Source of the DNA: Actinomycetota bacterium
GTDB lineage: Bacteria > Actinomycetota > Actinomycetes > Mycobacteriales > HKI-0501
Assembly: GCA_030840805.1 (NCBI GenBank)
Contig: JAVEDU010000027.1
Location: 1 to 64,000 of the forward strand
Direction of reading: 5' to 3'
DNA length: 64,000 bases
This document shows positions 1,754-1,904 of the stretch, in pieces (the first letter of the stretch is position 1; each line of letters begins with the position of its first letter). A program made the translations under genes and the position numbers. The notes under the pieces are model-generated. The model was not told the origin of the DNA, did not search any database, and saw nothing but the letters and a program-made list of their open reading frames with translations.

Positions 1754-1904
1754 GACGTGGGCTCCTCGGAAGGGCGGTGCCGCGGGTCTCGGCGGCGCGA
1801 CGACCGGCGGCAGCACAGAACTCCGCGGCGAGGAAGCCGGCCTCTAGGAGAGGGCCTCGCCGCGGCAGCGAAGAAGGAGCGCCATCCGCACGGAGGCCAG
1901 GGTA
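1754..1904 (-). promoter_or_regulatory. leuA promoter and attenuator-like leader RNA
   Basis: The -10 box TACCCT lies at 1904-1899 on the minus strand. In the leader RNA, the end of the leader-peptide ORF (1855-1865) is perfectly complementary over 11 bp to 1823-1833. The loop between them holds the leader stop codon at 1844-1846. A ribosome stalled on the Leu codons, or released at the stop, would change this pairing. The segment from 1754 to 1822 is GC-rich and could hold competing pairings, but I did not resolve a single terminator. Not shown: the transcript start or any termination. Confidence 0.6.
1844..1891 (-). CDS. leu leader peptide (three consecutive Leu codons)
   Basis: A 15-codon ORF starts at GTG 1891, or at the in-frame ATG 1885 (13 codons). 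From the ATG it reads MALLLRCRGEALS and then TAG. It has three consecutive leucine codons (CTC CTT CTT) and a fourth near the end. A TACCCT -10 box at 1899-1904 sits 7 nt before the GTG, so translation may begin at the transcript's first nucleotide. It lies about 90 nt upstream of leuA on the same strand, the expected place for an attenuation leader. Leader peptides before leuA are known in actinobacteria. That this one works this way is inference from position and codon content. Confidence 0.72.
   Translation of the reverse strand: MRMALLLRCRGEALS

Follow-up and report, generated by a model that had tools for sequence, protein, structure and literature searches.

The stretch of DNA that we analyzed, 64,000 nucleotides long and called the window here, carries directly upstream of its leuA gene, on the same strand (-), an RNA element that is clearly a member of the LEU element, a kind already described. 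It joins a short ORF containing a run of Leu codons to a hairpin and a pseudoknot that covary among relatives. The explanation that we prefer, at a probability of about 0.5, is that a leaderless leader peptide is read by the ribosome and that this reading would act on the initiation of leuA translation. The gene and the parts of its leader are as follows.

41 to 1753, minus strand: leuA, 2-isopropylmalate synthase, 570 aa (NCBIfam TIGR00970 / NF002991; Pfam HMGL-like, IPMS_D2, LeuA_dimer).
1899 to 1904, minus strand: -10 box of the leader promoter, TACCCT (from the sequence, with TANNNT in relatives).
1844 to 1891, minus strand: leader peptide ORF, probably leaderless, (GTG)MRMALLLRCRGEALS and stop, alternative start ATG 1885 (from the sequence; family mates with GTGCGGATGGCGC).
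1871 to 1879, minus strand: control codons CTC CTT CTT, Leu-Leu-Leu (LLL in 143/143 leuA-class leaders, which were selected by this run).
1844 to 1846, minus strand: leader stop codon TAG, within the P1 loop (from the sequence and the stop position in relatives).

The leader reads GTG (1891-1889), CGG, ATG (1885-1883), GCG, CTC CTT CTT, CGC TGC CGC GGC GAG GCC CTC TCC and TAG, which makes 15 codons from the GTG start or 13 from the ATG start. Seven bases separate the TACCCT box from GTG 1891 (TACCCT-N7-GTG), a spacing within the range of 5 to 9 nt, and there is no Shine-Dalgarno sequence ahead of the start; a sigma-70 consensus scan at the element gave no match. GTG 1891 is probably the start codon of a leaderless ORF because the arrangement TAC-N2-T-N7-GTGCGGATGGCGC was retained in both family mates (G001 and G002). 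Of the 143 leuA-class leaders, 109 had a TANNNT box 5 to 9 nt ahead of an in-frame start (15 expected after shuffling), and only 5 had a Shine-Dalgarno-like sequence ahead of the leader. In Streptomyces lividans, leuL1 was found to be leaderless by RNA-seq (PMC8079986). A preliminary description of this DNA had reported the ORF of 13 to 15 codons, its three Leu codons and the TACCCT box, all of which proved correct base for base with all coordinates right, and its suggestion of a seemingly leaderless start is supported by the counts above.

Next, we looked into how far the leader is conserved, using 80 leuA loci from public genomes with upstream DNA plus two genomes of the same family. A Leu-run leader candidate was present in 76 of 81 leuA upstream regions, one of which (L073, from a MAG labelled Burkholderiales) is not a true member, its leader having no CRGE-type end. 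The C-terminal pattern common to the relatives was LLL(L)-x-(C/R/G)-R-(G/D/S)-(E/G). At E up to 0.01, a covariance model built from 52 aligned elements matched 286 of the class's 297 genomes, and a Leu-run leader was present at every class-wide locus where leuA was found. The window's own genome gave one convincing match; its other matches (E above 0.02) were treated as chance, and the two that were inspected (L091 and L092) had no leader. Conservation of the Leu codons in relatives, to which the preliminary description had looked together with covarying stems, was thus borne out, and the loss of these codons in close relatives, noted there as counting against the proposal, was not seen, both family mates having kept the run. 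In addition, a second leuA paralogue with its own Leu-run LEU element was observed at several loci (L196, L198, L211, L214, L215, L259, L261, L265 and L267-L269); where measured, this paralogue was approximately 50% identical to the window's LeuA.

The structured part of the element consists of two helices.

1855 to 1865, minus strand: P1 hairpin 5' arm, CCGCGGCGAGG, inside the leader ORF (covariation).
1823 to 1833, minus strand: P1 hairpin 3' arm, CCTCGCCGCGG (covariation).
1836 to 1842, minus strand: pseudoknot helix 5' strand, GGCCGGC, in the P1 loop (covariation; native versus swapped partners).
1802 to 1808, minus strand: pseudoknot helix 3' strand, GCCGGTC (covariation).

P1 is an exact 11-bp hairpin in which CCGCGGCGAGG (1865-1855) is complementary to CCTCGCCGCGG (1833-1823) around a loop of 21 nt, and GGCCGGC in this loop together with GCCGGTC downstream gives an H-type pseudoknot. 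The complementarity and the leader stop codon in the loop had been pointed out before, and both were confirmed; the stop codon lay 2 to 8 nt past the P1 5' arm in the 77 relatives tabulated. The hairpin region alone folded only modestly better than shuffled sequence, by 2.1 SD (z = -2.1); the comparative evidence was decisive for P1. The 23 distinct arm pairs retained 247 of 253 base pairs, compared with 234 ± 2 when partners were swapped, and the per-pair counts of P1 showed GC, AU and GU pairs exchanged in step among relatives. We also compared contiguous-helix scores of native and swapped partners over 136 distinct leuA elements drawn from these loci and from the class-wide search (3,000 shuffles); since swapping ignores relatedness, the value of a control segment (z = 1.5) serves as the yardstick. 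With kinship ignored in this way, the P1 arms reached a z of 14 and the pseudoknot a z of 7.7, with 0 of 3,000 shuffles as high. A version of the pseudoknot test that used RNAduplex energies discriminated poorly (z = -3), as GC-rich strands pair indiscriminately, and contiguous-helix scoring was sharper. On this comparative evidence we regard the predicted P1 and pseudoknot as firm.

A third pairing, between the Leu run and the Shine-Dalgarno sequence of leuA, is of a different standing.

1874 to 1880, minus strand: possible base stem 5' strand, GCTCCTT, overlapping the Leu codons (predicted MFE fold; Seliverstov 2005).
1761 to 1767, minus strand: possible base stem 3' strand, GAGGAGC, the leuA Shine-Dalgarno sequence (predicted MFE fold).

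The Shine-Dalgarno sequence lies 8 nt ahead of ATG 1753, and in the MFE fold predicted for the window one stem joins GCUCCUU to GAGGAGC and the start of the leader to the start codon of leuA. Of 138 MFE folds of relatives, 73 paired the Shine-Dalgarno window with the Leu run. The swap test gave the stem a z of 2.15 (60 of 3,000 shuffles; control segment, 1.5; 136 distinct elements, kinship ignored), and because the stem covaries only weakly, the pairing may largely reflect pyrimidine-rich Leu codons facing purine-rich Shine-Dalgarno sequences. As the conserved core, the base stem found weak support in two swapped-partner tests; it is not firm, though it is present in this window's predicted fold. 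The preliminary description had contained neither this possible pairing (Shine-Dalgarno, 1767-1762), nor the pseudoknot (1842-1836/1808-1802), nor the prior description of the element.

The choice of codons in the leaders bears on what they sense. The last Leu codon was the rare CUU in 136 of 143 leuA-class leaders, and CUU accounted for 40% of the Leu codons of leaders versus 1% of those in the corresponding leuA genes. The third position was A or T in 39% of the codons for branched-chain amino acids versus 15% of the other leader codons, so that the rare-codon bias is specific to the control codons. A bias of this kind is what selection on tRNA reading would give, and the need to keep the Leu-run region unpaired could contribute to it. 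The codon comparisons thus favor amino-acid sensing by translation of the leader, as read from sequence.

The covariance model also matched sites other than leuA in several families, and a model built on these sites found 40 elements upstream of leuB.

L197, L199, L200, L203, L208, L222-L241, L243-L246, L249-L257, L260, L262-L264, L266, L270 and L271, in other actinobacteria: leuB-class elements.

Downstream of these elements comes leuB and then, in most of the loci that extend far enough, ilvE. Their leaders, such as MRSVFVLIDCRGEA, MRQVLVLITCRGGA and MQWSVRILSCRDEAR, coded for Val, Ile and Leu in 38 of 40 cases and for LLL in 0 of 40; because the leuA-class leaders were picked by LLL, the informative contrast is that all three amino acids occurred in 38/40 leuB-class leaders and in 3/143 leuA-class leaders. 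The leuB-class leaders were enriched in the rare codons GUA (57% versus 1%) and AUU (41% versus 2%), and rare CUU codons were also present. P1 (z = 7.4) and the pseudoknot (z = 10) covaried in this class as well, with pseudoknot sequences different from those of the leuA class. The elements lie 90 to 740 nt upstream of the next genes, and sequestration of a Shine-Dalgarno sequence is unlikely at leuB because the element is too far away, which hints that the conserved core acts otherwise. No leuB-type element was found in the window's genome, which has the leuA site only and its leuB on contig C101. The literature searched yielded no account of the leuB class, most subscription journals being beyond the reach of that search.

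Several further genes were observed near such elements. At leuB-class loci (for example, L197 and L219), a conserved small ORF lies between the element and leuB; it has approximately 32 to 46 codons, contains the motif A(L/M)DxRDNGG, is preceded by a Shine-Dalgarno sequence of its own and matched no Pfam or NCBIfam family above the cut-off. Four mycobacteria-like loci (L205, L220, L202 and L201) code for stand-alone proteins of approximately 145 to 165 aa with the LeuA allosteric (dimerization) domain PF08502 (1.3e-9 in L205; weaker, below the cut-off, in L220). A LEU-like element whose leader codes for Leu and Val (for example, MKNILVVRRRSGV) precedes these genes, and their product is possibly a separate regulatory subunit. 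One locus (L210) has a LEU-like element with the leader MRAPRLLLRCRGGASS immediately ahead of leuC.

Because the same P1-pseudoknot precedes leuA, leuB, leuC and the LeuA_dimer gene with differing codons, the sequences point to a module whose codons match the gene controlled. We think it fairly likely that the LEU element represents a wider, modular type of actinobacterial pseudoknot attenuator, in which a leaderless peptide carries rare branched-chain codons that are retargeted and a fixed hairpin-pseudoknot, not an intrinsic terminator, is the controller, the targets being Leu for leuA and leuC, Val/Ile/Leu for leuB-ilvE, and Leu/Val for the gene of the stand-alone LeuA allosteric domain. 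With the leuB-type elements included, the family would be a general sensor of branched-chain amino acids, a point relevant to strains used for amino-acid production.

In the explanation that we prefer for leuA, RNA polymerase would start at or beside the start codon of the leader, and ribosomes would load on the 15-codon leaderless ORF. With leucyl-tRNA plentiful, the ribosome would pass the rare CUU codon, reach UAG in the P1 loop and leave; P1 and the pseudoknot would then close, and the 5' end of the leader (its start region and Leu codons) would pair with the ribosome-binding site and start codon of leuA, so that little LeuA would be made. With charged tRNA-Leu in short supply, the ribosome would be held on the Leu codons and would block the closing stem, leaving the leuA initiation site free. 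We infer both the stalling of the ribosome and an output through the initiation of leuA translation rather than through termination of the transcript. Against this explanation stand the weak covariation of the base stem, the distance of the leuB-class elements from their genes and the effects of Streptomyces coelicolor mutants. When the leuA leader of S. coelicolor was mutated, the outcome did not fit classical attenuation (Craster 1999, cited in PMC1262725). Given the base-stem proposal, Leu-codon mutants change sensing and pairing at once, and this is possibly why they are hard to read.

A serious rival, to which we assign a distinctly lower probability, is control of transcript extension: the same leader and the same P1 and pseudoknot would cause premature termination in leucine-replete cells, through Rho or a hairpin with no U run. 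Transcriptome studies of Corynebacterium glutamicum and S. lividans list the leuA leader among attenuators (PMC4046766 and PMC8079986), and at the 90 to 740 nt of the leuB class, one can more readily envisage control of transcript extension than masking of a Shine-Dalgarno sequence. Nevertheless, a scan for intrinsic terminators found no hairpin with a U run at the window's element, and the leuA leaders of other actinobacteria are likewise reported to have no typical terminator (PMC8079986 and PMC1262725). A classical terminator-based attenuator was rejected for the same reason, although the leader peptide does contain control codons for the end product, Leu, as such an attenuator requires; the conserved structure is an H-type pseudoknot and not a terminator/antiterminator pair. 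Rfam gave no family at the leader site, either for the whole window at the gathering threshold or for positions 1700 to 2060 at E up to 1. Elsewhere in the window, Rfam matched two other RNAs.

42842 to 42915, plus strand: 6C RNA (RF01066), 58.7 bits.
12828 to 12901, minus strand: tRNA gene.

The preliminary description had suggested ribosome-mediated attenuation of leuA. Its leucine leader peptide stands, and codon-based sensing is favored; with no intrinsic terminator found, classical "attenuation" has only partial support, premature termination of transcription may take place, and control of leuA at the level of translation is no less likely.

An improbable reading is that a protein binds the pseudoknot, with the leader peptide being incidental. 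Seliverstov and co-workers, who named the ML1624 helicase family, preferred a binding protein because Leu-codon mutants of S. coelicolor did not behave as attenuation would have it (PMC1262725). However, the rare CUU, GUA and AUU codons occur only at branched-chain residues, which argues for strong selection on codon identity, and the residues are retargeted to Val, Ile and Leu before leuB, something that a protein-binding site would not need. The response of leuA to leucine in actinobacteria has been debated since 1999, when the leader mutants of S. coelicolor were described, and a protein-binding role was proposed in 2005; the codon evidence points back to translation of the leader.

It is slightly less probable still that P1 and the pseudoknot act mainly on RNA stability or on the handover of ribosomes (reinitiation) from the leader to leuA: among relatives, the spacer between the end of P1 and the start of leuA (median, 58 nt; minimum, 44) is compatible with coupling but varies up to 158 nt. 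Lastly, the modest advantage of the single-sequence fold (approximately 2 SD beyond shuffles) might have suggested a chance ORF and a chance hairpin with no function in a GC-rich upstream region, a reading that is refuted by the conserved leader and by the covariation of P1 and the pseudoknot through the class.

In the E. coli leuLABCD attenuator, consecutive rare Leu codons of the leader peptide report the charging of tRNA-Leu. That system (Rfam Leu_leader) is a classical terminator/antiterminator with no pseudoknot, unlike the window's element, which also has no Rfam match. Leaders called leuL are annotated in S. lividans, C. glutamicum and Corynebacterium diphtheriae (PMC8079986, PMC4046766, PMC8709942 and PMC5784534). 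The S. lividans LeuL1 (MRFGLLLLSCRGEGL) is a leader peptide like the window's MRMALLLRCRGEALS, which is probably leaderless too, and it has no typical terminator (PMC8079986); in the window's leader the Leu run is one codon shorter (three against four), and the start is GTG. Two leaders from one genus in our set (L146 and L152) were identical to the published LeuL1. The leuL of Corynebacterium (MTSRANLLLLRRGGSQRS in C. glutamicum [PMC8709942]; C. diphtheriae, PMC5784534) is a Leu-run leader before leuA, as here, but has a longer N terminus and is more distant in sequence from the window's leader.

The closest likeness is to the LEU element of actinobacterial leuA, described as a Leu-run leader with a pseudoknot, a proposed base stem joining the Leu codons to the leuA Shine-Dalgarno sequence, and no terminator (Seliverstov 2005, PMC1262725). 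The window's element lies upstream of leuA and has the Leu-run ORF, the pseudoknot and no intrinsic terminator, and nothing essential differs in this window. What our analysis adds is a wider test of covariation, the finding of weak support for the base stem, the CUU bias and the recognition of the module before leuB, leuC and the LeuA_dimer gene.
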